From positions 1 to 53,911 of the forward strand of contig CALUSC010000013.1 in NCBI GenBank assembly GCA_944323345.1: DNA of 53,911 nt. Reading direction: 5' to 3'. This DNA is from an uncultured Bacteroidales bacterium. GTDB lineage: Bacteria > Bacteroidota > Bacteroidia > Bacteroidales > UBA932. Below the pieces are notes generated by a model. It ran no database searches. It saw only the letters and a list, made by a program, of their open reading frames with translations, and was not told the origin of the DNA. Shown here piece by piece: positions 45,727 to 53,777 of the stretch (position 1 is the first letter of the stretch; each line of letters starts with the position of its first letter). The translations under genes and the position numbers were made by a program.

Positions 45727-45757
45727 TTGTATTTTTGAAAAAATAGCTTTATATTTG
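45727..45757 (+). promoter_or_regulatory. Promoter of the Phe/Tyr operon leader
   Basis: TTG (45727-45729), 20 nt, TATATTTG (45750-45757). Transcription would start near 45763, about 12 nt before the leader peptide ATG. A second TAnnTTTG match, TATTTTTG at 45730-45737, lies between the boxes. Confidence 0.74.
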
Positions 45758-45775
45758 TACTTGTTACGTCTGAAT

Positions 45776-45832
45776 ATGAGCAAACGATTTAGCGCATACG
45801 GTTATTTTTATTTCTATTTCCAGAAAAGGTGA
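45776..45832 (+). CDS. Phe/Tyr leader peptide (attenuation)
   Basis: An 18-codon reading frame, MSKRFSAYGYFYFYFQKR, with four Phe and four Tyr codons, seven of them among codons 8-15 in the alternating order TAC GGT TAT TTT TAT TTC TAT TTC. It lies between a good promoter and a strong terminator directly ahead of pheA. Such a composition is the hallmark of ribosome-mediated attenuation: a ribosome waiting for charged tRNA-Phe or tRNA-Tyr would stop 15-30 nt before the segment 45836-45842 that can act as antiterminator. Too short for usual gene finding. Confidence 0.85.
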   Translation: MSKRFSAYGYFYFYFQKR

Positions 45833-45835
45833 TAG

Positions 45836-45889
45836 CCGGACGTCGCGTGTAGTACAATATAATATAAAAAATATGTTGGAGCTGTCCGG
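45836..45889 (+). promoter_or_regulatory. Candidate antiterminator pairing of the Phe/Tyr attenuator
   Basis: CCGGACG (45836-45842), starting 4 nt after the leader stop, can pair with TGTCCGG (45883-45889): six Watson-Crick pairs plus one G-U. This would break the 5' arm of the terminator stem at 45878-45888. A ribosome that reaches the stop codon would cover 45836-45842 and let the terminator form. The pairing is short, so other alternative structures are possible. Confidence 0.5.
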
Positions 45890-45913
45890 GTGCGGGCGGC
45901 TCCGTTTTTTTTT
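45878..45913 (+). terminator. Attenuator terminator before pheA
   Basis: GGAGCTGTCCG (45878-45888), loop GGTG, CGGGCGGCTCC (45893-45903): 11 continuous pairs with two G-U, then G and nine T (45905-45913). It ends 6 bp before the pheA ATG at 45920, so full-length transcription requires read-through. Confidence 0.9.
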
Positions 45914-45919
45914 GAAGAA

Positions 45920-46765
45920 ATGGAAAATACGACTAAAAAAAGAGTAGCGATACAGGGCTATTCGGGATGTTTTCACGAGCAGGCTGCCAGAATATTCTAT
46001 GACAAATTCGACGGCAGTACGCCGGGTATAGTGGAGTGTCCTACATTCGATGATCTGTACAGATCTTTGGATGCGGGAAGGGCGGATGCGGCCATCATGG
46101 CTATCGAAAATACGGTTTCAGGCGGTTTGCTCCCTAATTTCGAACTGCTCAGGAAATACAACGTGAAGATAAAGGGAGAGGTTTTCCTGCGTATCCAGCA
46201 GAACCTCATGGCGCTCCCTGGCCAGAAGATAGAAGATATCAAGGAAGTGAGGACGCATTACATGGCCATCAACCAGACCCGTCCGTTTTTCCAGTCCTAT
46301 CCGTGGATAAGGCTCGTGGAGTCTGAGGATACGGCGAAAAGCGCTGCGGATGTTGCGGAGCAGAAGCTTGCCGGGGTAGGAGCCGTGGCATCCCTGCTGG
46401 CGGCTGACCTTTACGGACTGGAAGTCCTTCAGGAAAGCATCGAGACATACAAGCAGAATTTCACCAGATTCCTGGTATTCGATGACAGCATCACTATTCC
46501 CAAAGACAGGGTGAATAAAGTTTCCCTGTGCTTTACGCTTCCCCATAAGGCAGGCTCGCTGGCGCAGGTCCTCACCATACTCTCGTTCTACGATATGAAT
46601 CTCACCAGAATACAGTCTCTTCCCATACCGGGGAAATCGTGGCAGTATTTTTTCTATGCCGACATAAAATTCGACAATTATCTCCGTTACAGCCAGGCTG
46701 TTTCGGCTGTACGCCCTCTGATGGAGGATCTCAATATCCTCGGAGAATATGAAGCTGCATTGTAA
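45920..46765 (+). CDS. pheA: Prephenate dehydratase
   Basis: 281-residue standalone dehydratase turning prephenate into phenylpyruvate. The ATG at 45920 is the start; a longer frame from GTG at 45890 runs through the terminator stem and T-tract. N-terminal VAIQGYSGCFHEQAA and FDDLYRSLDAGRADAAIMAIENT, catalytic Thr-Arg-Phe at 182-184 (NFTRFLVF), and a C-terminal ACT domain (KVSLCFTLPHKAGSLAQVL) containing the Phe-sensing ESRP-like region as RIQSLPIPG, where the consensus E and R are not kept. First structural gene of the attenuated operon. Confidence 0.95.
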   Translation: MENTTKKRVAIQGYSGCFHEQAARIFYDKFDGSTPGIVECPTFDDLYRSLDAGRADAAIMAIENTVSGGLLPNFELLRKYNVKIKGEVFLRIQQNLMALPGQKIEDIKEVRTHYMAINQTRPFFQSYPWIRLVESEDTAKSAADVAEQKLAGVGAVASLLAADLYGLEVLQESIETYKQNFTRFLVFDDSITIPKDRVNKVSLCFTLPHKAGSLAQVLTILSFYDMNLTRIQSLPIPGKSWQYFFYADIKFDNYLRYSQAVSAVRPLMEDLNILGEYEAAL

Positions 46766-46791: not shown

Positions 46792-47994
46792 ATGATAATC
46801 AGACCAGCCAAAAGGACAGAATCAGTCCGGGAATATTACTTCTCACGGAAGCTGAAAGAAATAGACAGGATGAACGCGGAAAGGGTTGCCTCCGGCCGCG
46901 ACCGTATCATAAATCTGGGCATAGGCGCACCTGACGGGATGCCGCCTGCCGCGGCAATAGATGCTCTCAGGGAATCGGCTTCGCAGCCGGGCAATCATGC
47001 TTATCAGAGCTACATAGGTATTCCGCAACTGAGACAGGCATTTGCGGAATGGTATGCAAGATACTACGGCGTTACTCTCGATTCTGAAAAGGAAATCCAG
47101 CCTTTGGCCGGCTCGAAGGAGGGAATACTTCTGATATCGCTTGCTTTTCTGAATCCCGGAGACAAGGTTCTGGTTCCGGATCCGGGATATCCGACTTATT
47201 CATCCGCTACAGCCCTGACCGAAGCTGAACTGGTGCCGTATGACCTGAAGGCAGACAACGGGTGGCGGCCAGACTTCGATGCATTGGAAAAAATGGATCT
47301 AAGCGGAGTGAAAATCATGTGGACGAACTATCCCAACATGCCGACCGGAGCTTCCGCTGACATGGAATTATATGGCAGACTCGTGGATTTCGGCCGCAGA
47401 CACGGGATCCTGGTCTGCAACGACAATCCTTACAGTTTTATCCTGAATGACAACCCGCTTTCCATTCTGGCCGTTCCGGGAGCCAAAGACTGCTGTCTGG
47501 AGCTGAATTCGCTGAGCAAGGCGCACAACATGTCCGGCTGGCGTATCGGAATGGTGGCCGCAGATGCTGAAATCATCTCGCAGATATTGAAGGTCAAGAG
47601 CCAGATGGATTCGGGGATGTTCAAACCGTTGCAGCTGGCTGCCGTGGAAGCATTGTCCCAGGGGCCTGAGTGGTTCGAATCCCTCAATGCGGAGTACCGG
47701 CGCCGCCGGGTTCTGGCCGGAAGGATTTTCGACATTATCGGCGCGGATTATGACAGGGACAGCAGCGGGATGTTTCTATGGGGGAGAATCTCTCCGGGCA
47801 ACAGATTCCTGAATCCAGAGGCCGGTGACGCTTCTCTCGGAGAGCAGGTGTCCGATAAGATTCTATATAATGCAGGGGTTTTCATCACTCCGGGTTTCAT
47901 TTTCGGCAAGAACGGGCGTGATTATATACGTATCTCGCTCTGCGCAAAGCCGGAAATCCTCGAATGCTCGGCTGAAAAAATCCTGGGGATATGA
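46792..47994 (+). CDS. Aminotransferase class I/II (aromatic amino acid operon)
   Basis: 400-residue fold-type I PLP enzyme. GIGAPDGMPPAAAIDAL (residues 43-59), YQSYIGIPQLRQAFA, PLAGSKEGILLISLAF, DPGYPTYSSA, TNYPNMPTGA and the PLP-Lys in LNSLSKAHNMSGWRIG. Position between pheA and tyrA suggests that it transaminates phenylpyruvate and 4-hydroxyphenylpyruvate to Phe and Tyr, or prephenate to arogenate. The sequence alone resembles LL-diaminopimelate/aspartate-type aminotransferases, so specificity is inferred from context. 26 bp after pheA. Confidence 0.88.
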   Translation: MIIRPAKRTESVREYYFSRKLKEIDRMNAERVASGRDRIINLGIGAPDGMPPAAAIDALRESASQPGNHAYQSYIGIPQLRQAFAEWYARYYGVTLDSEKEIQPLAGSKEGILLISLAFLNPGDKVLVPDPGYPTYSSATALTEAELVPYDLKADNGWRPDFDALEKMDLSGVKIMWTNYPNMPTGASADMELYGRLVDFGRRHGILVCNDNPYSFILNDNPLSILAVPGAKDCCLELNSLSKAHNMSGWRIGMVAADAEIISQILKVKSQMDSGMFKPLQLAAVEALSQGPEWFESLNAEYRRRRVLAGRIFDIIGADYDRDSSGMFLWGRISPGNRFLNPEAGDASLGEQVSDKILYNAGVFITPGFIFGKNGRDYIRISLCAKPEILECSAEKILGI

Positions 47995-48047: not shown

Positions 48048-48914
48048 ATGAAGATTGGAATTGTAGGTCTGGGCCTGATAGGAGGCTCGATGGCCATCGA
48101 TCTGAAAAGAAAAGGGTTTGCCGATGAGATAACCGGAGTCGAGTCGGACAGCGTGAATGCGGCTGCTGCCTTGAAGATCGGACTTGTGGACAGGATATTG
48201 CCATTGAAAGAATGTGTGGATGTCAGCGACATGATAATATTGGCTGTCCCGGTGGGGGCAGCCGTAAGAATGCTTCCGGAAATACTGGATATGTTCAAGG
48301 CAGAGGAAAATGCGGCGGGAGTGTGCCGGAGAACGGTCATTGATGTCTGTTCTACAAAGGAACAGCTGGCGAAAACAGCGCATTACCATCCCATGAGGAC
48401 CCATTATGTGGCGACGCATCCGATGGCCGGTACTGAATATTCGGGCCCGTGGGCTGCCATGCCGGGGCTTTTCGACGGGAGAGCCTGCATCATCTGCAAT
48501 CAGGAGGAATCTTCGCCGGCATCCGTGCGTCTGGTGGAGAAAATGTATGATGTGCTGAATATGAGACCGATATACATGAACGCATCAAGCCATGACGTGC
48601 ATACGGCGTATGTGTCGCACATTTCCCACATCACTTCTTTCGCTCTGGCCCTTACGGTGCTGGACAAGGAAAAGAACGAAAAGCACATCTTCGATCTGGC
48701 TTCGGGAGGATTTTCATCTACCGTGCGTCTGGCGAAAAGCAACGCCGACATGTGGGTGCCGATATTTTCCCAGAACAGGGAGAATCTGCTGAAGGTGATA
48801 GATACGTATATCGACAAGATCAACGCTTTCCGCAGGGCCATAGATGAATTCGACGAACCGGGAATACGTTCGCTTATCGAAGATGCCAACAGGATAAAAA
48901 GAATAATAAGATAA
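48048..48914 (+). CDS. tyrA: Prephenate dehydrogenase
   Basis: 288 residues. Nucleotide-binding IGIVGLGLIGGSMAIDL at residue 3, then MIILAVPVGAAVRMLPEIL, VIDVCSTKEQL, THPMAGTEYSGP and the catalytic-region His in NASSHDVHTAYVSHISHITS. Converts prephenate to 4-hydroxyphenylpyruvate for Tyr. Monofunctional (no chorismate mutase domain; that is on the next gene). 53 bp after the aminotransferase. Confidence 0.93.
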   Translation: MKIGIVGLGLIGGSMAIDLKRKGFADEITGVESDSVNAAAALKIGLVDRILPLKECVDVSDMIILAVPVGAAVRMLPEILDMFKAEENAAGVCRRTVIDVCSTKEQLAKTAHYHPMRTHYVATHPMAGTEYSGPWAAMPGLFDGRACIICNQEESSPASVRLVEKMYDVLNMRPIYMNASSHDVHTAYVSHISHITSFALALTVLDKEKNEKHIFDLASGGFSSTVRLAKSNADMWVPIFSQNRENLLKVIDTYIDKINAFRRAIDEFDEPGIRSLIEDANRIKRIIR

Positions 48915-48933: not shown

Positions 48934-50055
48934 ATGGAAAAGAAACTCGACATCATTCCACTGGAAGAGTGGAATCTGTTCAATCTGTTCAACGAAAAGA
49001 AACCTCTGCTCATCGCAGGACCTTGCAGTGCTGAATCCGAAATACAGATTATGGAGACTGCTCGCGGACTCAAGTCGATGGGAGTCAGTGTGTTCCGTGC
49101 CGGAATATGGAAACCTCGCACTCATCCGAATACTTTCGAGGGCGTAGGTACACCGGGACTGAAATGGCTTCAGAGGGTGAAAAACGAACTCGGAATGAAA
49201 ATATGTACTGAAGTCGCCAGCGAAAGACATATCTTCGACTGTATGAAATTCGGTGTCGATATGGTCTGGATAGGCGCACGTACCACGGCGAATCCTTTTC
49301 TGGTGCAGGAAATCGCTGATGCCCTGAAAGACACGGACATACCTGTCCTCGTGAAAAATCCGGTGAATCCGGACATCGACCTTTGGATAGGAGCGTTGGA
49401 ACGCCTGAACCAGGCAGGAGTGAAGAAACTGGGAGTAATCCACCGCGGTTTCTCGACTTCAGAGAAGATTCCTTACAGGAACAGGCCGGACTGGCAGATA
49501 GCGGTAGAATTGAGGACCCGCTATCCGGAACTGCCTTTCTTCTGCGATCCGAGCCACATGGGCGGAGCCAAGAAATACATTCAGGAAATCTCGCAGACGG
49601 CACTTGATCTGGGGCTGGACGGGCTGATGATCGAGTCGCACTGCGATCCGACATGCGCTCTCAGCGATGCCAAGCAGCAGCTTACTCCGAAAGAGATGGA
49701 AGAGCTGATGTCCAGGCTGACTGTCAGGGAGAACGATTCGGACAGTCCGGAATACCGGGAAAACATACACCAGCTGCGTGCCAAGATAGACGTCCTGGAT
49801 GACAGTCTGCTCTATCTTCTCGGTTCCAGAATGGATATCAGCCGTCAGATAGGGGAGTATAAGAAGACCAACAATATCGCGATACTTCAGACGGGGCGTT
49901 GGGATGAACTGCTCGCCAAGGCCATCGAAAAGGGTGCGACTCTCGGACTTCCGGCGAAATTCGTTTCCGCAGTCTTCAATGCCATACACGAGGCTTCCGT
50001 ACAGGTCCAGAATGATATCCTTACAGGAGGCTCTTCAGAAGATTCCGGAAAATAA
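48934..50055 (+). CDS. aroF: DAHP synthase fused to chorismate mutase
   Basis: 373 residues. Residues 1-265 are a KDO8P-synthase-like (type I beta) DAHP synthase, with LLIAGPCSAESEIQI, FRAGIWKPRTHPNTFEGVG, ICTEVASERH, KNPVNPDIDLWIGALERL, FFCDPSHMGGAK and IESHCDPTCALSDAKQQLTP. Residues about 285-365 form an AroQ chorismate mutase (LRAKIDVLDDSLLYLLGSRM, ISRQIGEYKK). The enzyme thus provides the first shikimate step and the chorismate branch to prephenate. The fusion order DAHPS-CM is common in Bacteroidota. Its 3' end overlaps lpxK on the other strand by 35 bp. Confidence 0.95.
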   Translation: MEKKLDIIPLEEWNLFNLFNEKKPLLIAGPCSAESEIQIMETARGLKSMGVSVFRAGIWKPRTHPNTFEGVGTPGLKWLQRVKNELGMKICTEVASERHIFDCMKFGVDMVWIGARTTANPFLVQEIADALKDTDIPVLVKNPVNPDIDLWIGALERLNQAGVKKLGVIHRGFSTSEKIPYRNRPDWQIAVELRTRYPELPFFCDPSHMGGAKKYIQEISQTALDLGLDGLMIESHCDPTCALSDAKQQLTPKEMEELMSRLTVRENDSDSPEYRENIHQLRAKIDVLDDSLLYLLGSRMDISRQIGEYKKTNNIAILQTGRWDELLAKAIEKGATLGLPAKFVSAVFNAIHEASVQVQNDILTGGSSEDSGK

Positions 50056-53668: not shown

Positions 53669-53711
53669 ACAAACCATATCTAAAAATTGAGATGCACGCT
53701 GTACGTGCAAT

Positions 53712-53762
53712 GTCATTTTAGCATTTTTTTGTGTGGTTGCAAGCAGCCAAATCTCTCCACAT
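53712..53762 (-). promoter_or_regulatory. SAM-II-like riboswitch aptamer upstream of metK
   Basis: On the minus strand TGTGG (53761-53757) pairs with CCACA (53736-53732) as P1. The loop starts AGAGATTTGGC and ends CTTGCAA, and the 3' strand carries an A-run then GCTAAAA (53722-53716). GATTT, TTGCAA and GCTAAAA in this order and spacing match the conserved core of SAM-II (and the related SAM-V) aptamers, in which they form the ligand site. The P2 pseudoknot pairing after GCTAAAA is not obvious to me, which is the main weakness. Location before metK and a terminator supports it. A TGCACG/CGTGCA hairpin (53690s-53708) follows. Confidence 0.68.
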
Positions 53763-53777
53763 TTCTGTTTTCGGCTG

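Follow-up and report, generated by a model that had tools for sequence, protein, structure and literature searches.

The window—the whole stretch of 53,911 nt analysed here, from an uncultured Bacteroidales bacterium—contains a four-gene aromatic amino-acid operon that begins with pheA, directly downstream of frr. Read directly from the sequence, positions 45727–45920 comprise a promoter, an 18-codon open reading frame (ORF), an antiterminator segment, a terminator and the start of pheA (Table 1). This bears out an initial sequence-only reading of the region, which had described a promoter, an 18-residue leader peptide with four Phe and four Tyr codons, a possible antiterminator, a terminator with nine T and pheA 6 bp further on. 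That reading had also given the terminator an 11-bp stem; the stem is present, and consists of 11–12 pairs with G-U pairs included. The T run is separated from the pheA ATG by 6 nt.

Table 1. Features of the frr–pheA leader region and of the downstream operon.
Feature	Position	Strand	Basis
frr stop codon	45721–45723		sequence reading
Promoter: TTG at 45727–45729, 20-nt spacer, TATATTTG at 45750–45757	45727–45757	+	sequence reading; recurrence of TANNTTTG in relatives
Leader peptide ORF, MSKRFSAYGYFYFYFQKR, 4 Phe and 4 Tyr	45776–45832	+	sequence; recurrence in relatives
Control codons Y G Y F Y F Y F	45797–45820	+	sequence; (TWY)6 unique in genome
Strand 1, CGGTTAT, able to pair with 45832–45838 (protector hairpin)	45799–45805	+	minimum-energy fold; genus alignment
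Strand 2, antiterminator arm CCGGAC	45836–45841	+	sequence, pairing, arm placement, masked folding
Strand 3, GTCCGG, common to antiterminator and terminator	45884–45889	+	genus alignment
Intrinsic terminator: stem 45877–45904, then nine T at 45905–45913	45877–45913	+	sequence; terminator detection; genus alignment
pheA, prephenate dehydratase, first gene of operon	45920–46765	+	gene identity search
Aminotransferase (LL-DAP/aspartate aminotransferase-like)	46792–47994	+	gene identity search
tyrA, prephenate dehydrogenase	48048–48914	+	gene identity search
aroG-like DAHP synthase with chorismate mutase domain	48934–50055	+	gene identity search

The arrangement TTG-N19-21-TANNTTTG, which we take to be the Bacteroidetes promoter consensus, is fitted by the TTG and TATATTTG elements upstream of the leader, and transcription is expected to start at around 45763. 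Strand 2 begins 15 nt past the last Phe codon and 3 nt past the leader stop codon, and it is the complement of strand 3, which lies within the 5′ arm of the terminator. The (TWY)6 codon run occurs once in the 2,119,513-base assembly, namely in this leader; the reversed pattern occurs four times, and rarity alone is thus moderate evidence only. The 151-nt leader folds 2.6 sd more stably than its dinucleotide shuffles, with three of 200 shuffles as good. That the element stands above chance is shown chiefly by the recurrence of its layout across the class, as described below.

The PheA of this contig is 92% identical to that of a Bacteroidales metagenome-assembled genome, 88% to that of Ca. C. 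merdigallinarum and 76%–78% to those of two further Candidatus Cryptobacteroides species. On these identities the host very probably belongs to Candidatus Cryptobacteroides. With this query, a PheA match was found in just 23 of 59 genomes of the host's family (17 of 40 good assemblies), which suggests that Phe synthesis has often been lost or that the enzymes have diverged.

PheA was then searched in genome samples of the genus, family, order and phylum, and the sequence upstream was scanned for leaders. A leader paired with a terminator was present in 140 of the 186 pheA loci, and a further group among them possesses a leader for which the finder detected no terminator. Among 20 additional loci of the class (L209–L228), 17 have a leader; the Tyr/Phe-rich short ORF that the sequence-only reading had proposed to look for in relatives does precede pheA in most Bacteroidia loci examined. 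In the same phylum but another class, a leader was found in three of 20 loci (L201–L203; two of the 20 have no PheA match), and L166, also from outside Bacteroidia, carries one. The PheA proteins of these out-of-class loci are 40.8%–48.5% identical to that of this contig (47% for L166), and this closeness to the Bacteroidia kind makes transfer a likely reason for the leader being there. The promoter motif recurs as well: of the 142 leader-bearing operonic loci—those with an aminotransferase and/or tyrA downstream of pheA—116 have TANNTTTG no more than 70 nt ahead of the leader ATG, versus 5.2% of mononucleotide shuffles. Two contigs labelled Lentisphaerae and Sericytochromatia (L292 and L336) encode PheA proteins 52% and 50% identical to that of this contig, respectively, through either mis-binning or transfer, and L292 has an F/Y leader upstream of pheA.

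These data bear on whether the region is simply an ordinary frr terminator accompanied by a chance ORF, with pheA served by its own promoter downstream. The terminator does sit between frr and pheA, part of the genus has no leader and has pheA abutting frr, and the reversed codon pattern is found four times in the genome, as noted above. However, frr is immediately upstream in just 15 of the 159 leader-bearing loci that have at least 600 nt of upstream sequence, and the element therefore belongs to pheA rather than to frr. The short gap between the T run and pheA and the placement of the complement after the control codons (see below) likewise tell against such an arrangement, which we regard as extremely improbable. 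A T-box or riboswitch before pheA was rejected, as no Rfam family, leader and T-box families included, reached its gathering score at the leader element or in 12 relatives. The sole Rfam match in the window is elsewhere, a SAM-II riboswitch (RF01726, 63.4 bits) at 53708–53766 on the minus strand, upstream of a gene that appears, from its ORF, to be metK-like.

We propose that the region is a ribosome-mediated transcription attenuator that would read both charged tRNA-Phe and charged tRNA-Tyr, with a shortage of either sufficing for a response, and we place the probability of this reading at nearly nine in ten. It is supported by the anatomy of the sequence, its conservation, the placement of the pairing arms and the way in which leader codons match the genes of the operon; from these we infer the stalling of the ribosome, the read-through and the OR response. 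RNA polymerase would start near 45763 and a ribosome would translate the leader. With both tRNAs charged, translation would proceed to the stop codon at 45830 and the ribosome would cover strand 2; strand 3 would then pair with strand 4, and transcription would end at the T run, short of pheA. A shortage of either tRNA would instead stall the ribosome at a Tyr or Phe codon. It would then cover strand 1 but not reach as far as strand 2, which would be free to pair with strand 3. This pairing would block the terminator, allowing transcription of pheA, the aminotransferase gene, tyrA and aroG. If no ribosome is present, strands 1 and 2 would pair and the terminator would form.

The placement of the arms is as ribosome-mediated attenuation requires: in 136 of 140 loci, the best complement of the terminator 5′ arm starts 0–20 nt downstream of the control codons, with a median of 12 nt, which corresponds to about one ribosome leading edge. 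Placement was measured from the final F/Y codon within the 10-codon window densest in such codons, and the search ran from the leader start to the terminator; where densest windows were tied the first was taken, and the reference codon at this locus is hence Y14 and not F15. The complement starts between −6 and +25 nt in 139 of 140 loci, whereas even placement would put about 32% of starts within this 32-nt stretch. The antiterminator duplex is better than at least 95% of its dinucleotide shuffles in 81% of the 140 loci, and better than 99% in 47%. Across the same loci, the arms of a locus pair at a mean of −15.2 kcal/mol versus −10.0 kcal/mol with arms from foreign loci, albeit just 82 of 140 beat 90% of foreign arms, and a CGGGA-like arm is common to many families.

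Within the genus alignment (n = 34), 89.4% of antiterminator cells and 95.1% of terminator cells are paired. The sequence-only reading had proposed to look for compensatory changes in both stems. These are seen in the antiterminator, in which columns 67 and 137 hold A-U in 14 sequences and U-A in five; against column shuffles, the pairs changed and the pair types were reached by 298 of 500, and the cells changed and the score by one of 500. Covariation of the terminator is not clearly above column shuffles in this alignment, with 39–90 of 500 reaching the observed measures. In the protector helix 75.4% of cells are paired, one pair is nearly always broken, and a slide of one column scores higher on covariation; support for this helix is weak.

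Competing folds, which the sequence-only reading had also proposed to compare, were computed for the transcript to 45892 with a ribosome masking the RNA at A-site codons Y8, Y10, F11, Y12, F13, Y14 and F15 and at the stop codon. With the ribosome at Y8, F13, Y14 or F15—that is, at four of the seven control codons—the antiterminator forms, and with the ribosome at Y10, F11 or Y12 strand 2 pairs with the 5′ end of the transcript instead of with strand 3. None of the seven control codons tested places strand 2 under the masked ribosome; the earlier idea that lack of either tRNA would stall the ribosome in the same place is thus unneeded. With a ribosome on the stop codon neither the antiterminator nor the 5′-end pairing forms, and when the ribosome is removed strand 1 pairs with strand 2. 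The terminator is present in the full-length minimum-energy fold of each of the nine states tried, and the decision must therefore depend on the order of synthesis. By sequence and masked folding, a ribosome stalled at a control codon would free an antiterminator whose formation rules out the terminator.

Whether both amino acids are read is best judged against relatives in which pheA stands apart from the other genes. Leader codons were compared with gene content in a table of 200 deduplicated loci made up of the order sample and the named loci; the genus, family and phylum samples lie outside this table because tyrA was unlocated there. TyrA was located with PF02153 in 145 of 295 genomes (a single-protein query gave 62 of 295), and aroG with a profile at a stricter cut-off, after a looser profile had drifted in iteration. 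Linkage was assigned by coordinates, on the same contig and within about 6 kb, and for genomes without linkage the genes that follow pheA were inspected directly. The leader finder used for the table accepted ATG starts only and did not require a terminator, with GTG and TTG starts checked separately.

An ATG-started leader precedes operonic pheA in 142 of 165 loci. Among the other 23, five lack upstream sequence and five (L005, L092, L134, L297 and L339) have GTG- or TTG-started leaders, all mixed for Phe and Tyr. Parabacteroides sp. An277 (L319), a named record that is not a metagenome-assembled genome, has both the leader and the operon. At least two Tyr and at least two Phe occur in the 10-codon control window of 140 of the 142 ATG-started leaders, and none is without Tyr; the two exceptions are L159, with one Tyr, and L280, with no Phe in the control window and one further up the leader. 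Overall, Tyr accounts for 36.5% and Phe for 44.9% of control-window residues. Where pheA is accompanied by aroG alone, a leader is present in eight of ten loci, all eight with at least two of each residue (in three of the ten, L301, L318 and L343, the looser profile saw tyrA further on), and loci of unclassified operon context have one in five of nine cases, all mixed. Lone pheA genes have a leader in eight of 16 loci, and of these six have no Tyr in the control window and two have one. Four labelled families account for seven of these eight leaders (f28, f38 and f99 with two each, f18 with one), and the eighth is from the unlabelled locus L344. The difference in Tyr-less control windows, 0 of 142 operonic versus 6 of 8 lone leaders, gives a Fisher P of 2e-9, and a Mann–Whitney comparison of operonic with lone leaders gives P = 5e-7, both with related loci counted as independent.

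Genes split off from pheA follow a similar pattern. The order sample has 13 genomes with lone pheA, of which all but G359 were examined; in 11 of these 12 the separate aminotransferase/aroG/tyrA unit has its own F+Y leader with a terminator; the twelfth (L259) has an F+Y leader and no terminator. In G256, pheA–aroG has a mixed leader and the separate aminotransferase–tyrA pair a Tyr-heavy one (L262). G158 keeps pheA, the aminotransferase gene and aroG together behind a mixed leader, and no leader was found upstream of its separate tyrA (L261). Mixed leaders, predicted in advance for seven linked genomes, were borne out in all seven. A Phe-only leader was expected before pheA in three unlinked genomes (G189, G383 and G292), and no leader was found in any of them; Tyr-only leaders were expected before the split-off tyrA units, and those found were mixed. 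As these units also hold shared genes, mixed leaders fit, a refinement made afterwards. Outside the table, L017 (G033) is an exception, with a Phe-only leader before pheA–aroG. The Tyr content of the leader thus appears to follow operon content, which argues for dual sensing, under a rule noticed on part of the same data. Together with recurrence in the class and the placement of the arms, this composition lends support to the earlier proposal of a Phe-plus-Tyr attenuator serving a combined operon.

Some leaders (for example L055–L057, L097, L152 and L256–L258) also have Trp codons within or next to their F/Y run, and Trp is present in 11 of the 142 operonic control windows, at 0.8% of residues; it is a possible third signal because DAHP synthase serves Trp too. 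In the host's own genome, no His-rich ATG leader ORF was found at the first 10 of 25 loci that match a His-run pattern.

The same comparison bears on a nascent Phe/Tyr-rich peptide that would itself arrest the ribosome in the manner of TnaC or Erm leaders, perhaps sensing a free aromatic compound and not charged tRNA. Peptides so dense in aromatic residues could contact the exit tunnel, and the length of the leader would suit. Arrest peptides usually keep defined residues, however, whereas in these leaders it is the composition that is kept while order, spacing and length differ, and the composition follows the amino acids made by the operon. We consider peptide-mediated arrest very unlikely.

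The regular Tyr–Phe alternation to which the sequence-only reading gave weight is present at this locus, but it is not conserved. Over 119 distinct control windows, successive F/Y switches number 522 of 838 against a permutation mean of 433.6 (sd 12.9). After collapse to 20 similarity clusters, however, FF neighbours are depleted (22 versus 32.6 expected, sd 3.0) and YY neighbours are not, with a weak excess of FY/YF among the 20 representatives (P about 0.03). As only the FF depletion is strong after clustering, alternation amounts to no more than a weak trend overall and was rejected as the key feature; the neat pattern seen here is particular to this clade.

The depletion of FF neighbours is what would be expected if the attenuator sensed Phe only and its Tyr codons were fillers, breaking up U-rich Phe runs at which slippage or premature termination might occur. 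Moreover, in 112 of 142 leaders Phe is the final aromatic residue encoded in the control window. Yet leaders of lone pheA genes (L091 and L118) run FFFFFF without Tyr, breaking the U run with synonymous codons (TTTTTCTTTTTC), and since such Phe-only leaders alternate TTT and TTC, avoidance of slippage alone cannot explain the Tyr codons. Tyr also makes up 36.5% of control-window residues against 44.9% for Phe, L280 has Tyr without Phe there, and Tyr tracks gene content. Filler Tyr codons in a Phe-only attenuator are therefore an improbable account, and sensing of both tRNAs is preferred.

The attenuator is not universal even among close relatives. A leader is present in 22 of 32 loci from the host's genus; the leaderless loci are L039–L041, L043–L045, L047, L048, L051 and L052, and in seven of these ten the end of frr runs directly into pheA, as read at the junction. 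On a PheA tree of 35 rows, the label of leader presence needs six changes, two of which are forced by well-supported branches. Across the 165 operonic loci, 18 have no leader even when GTG and TTG starts are allowed, five of these being short of upstream sequence. The leaderless operonic loci and the ten leaderless loci of the genus indicate that the switch is dispensable. In G007, the pheA match (L022), which has two in-frame stops, lies behind a terminator, and no F/Y-rich leader was found there; this pheA looks like a gene in decay.

Conversely, two complete leader–terminator modules stand in series at 16 of the 293 loci scanned, a total in which duplicates between collections were kept (L053, L064, L068, L076, L078, L081, L089, L125, L152, L155, L156, L157, L163, L232, L233 and L338). 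Every module of these doubled loci has both Phe and Tyr, and there is therefore no split into one sensor per amino acid. We lean towards the view that an ancient Phe-or-Tyr OR gate is common to the class and was retuned at each operon split—to Phe only before lone pheA, and to Phe plus Tyr before shared or Tyr genes—and sometimes doubled in series.

The switch is not without forerunners in this phylum, in which the sequence-only reading had called leader peptides little studied. Transcriptome work on Flavobacterium psychrophilum finds hints that leader peptides attenuate amino-acid operons, and describes a structured 5′ element that is conserved upstream of pheA in this species and other Flavobacteriaceae (PMC9723704). 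This is the same gene in the same phylum, and class-level loci described here (among L162–L188) may well represent the same element; the passages of that paper describing it, however, give no leader sequence, statement on Phe or Tyr, test against operon content, or extent beyond Flavobacteriaceae (PMC9723704). Long 5′ untranslated regions (UTRs) of Bacteroides thetaiotaomicron contain short ORFs reminiscent of attenuating leader peptides, with BT_4401 as the example, and pheA is not named in the sections concerned (PMC7366714). In Actinobacteria, a survey detected no RNA element conserved upstream of Phe or Tyr operons, while citing Phe attenuators of other species (PMC1262725), and the terms pheA and Bacteroid- are absent from the main text of a 2010 attenuator survey (PMC2965389). 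Attenuation of the pheL type is thus known, and the Phe-plus-Tyr variant, its class-wide extent and the tracking of operon content seem to be new here, subject to earlier literature. A comparative study by Lopatovskaya et al. (2010) may already list Bacteroidetes attenuators.

The results provide a testable rule for how a major class of gut and environmental bacteria may control the synthesis of aromatic amino acids, and add a Phe-plus-Tyr class to the known leader attenuators. The natural contrasts described above—operonic versus lone pheA, one versus two attenuators, and retention versus loss within one genus—open the gain and loss of attenuator specificity to study.

The closest known counterpart is pheL–pheA of Escherichia coli, in which a short leader rich in cognate codons is combined with alternative hairpins and a terminator just before pheA. 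All three traits are shared with the element described here; the E. coli attenuator, however, senses Phe alone and serves pheA alone, whereas that of Bacteroidia would read Phe and Tyr for an operon of four genes. For the reading of several products of one pathway by one leader there is precedent in the enterobacterial thrL (Thr, Ile) and ilvL (Ile, Val, Leu), which also follow OR logic. The Bacteroidia leaders resemble these in that respect, but they concern other amino acids, and among relatives their composition differs with the content of the operon.
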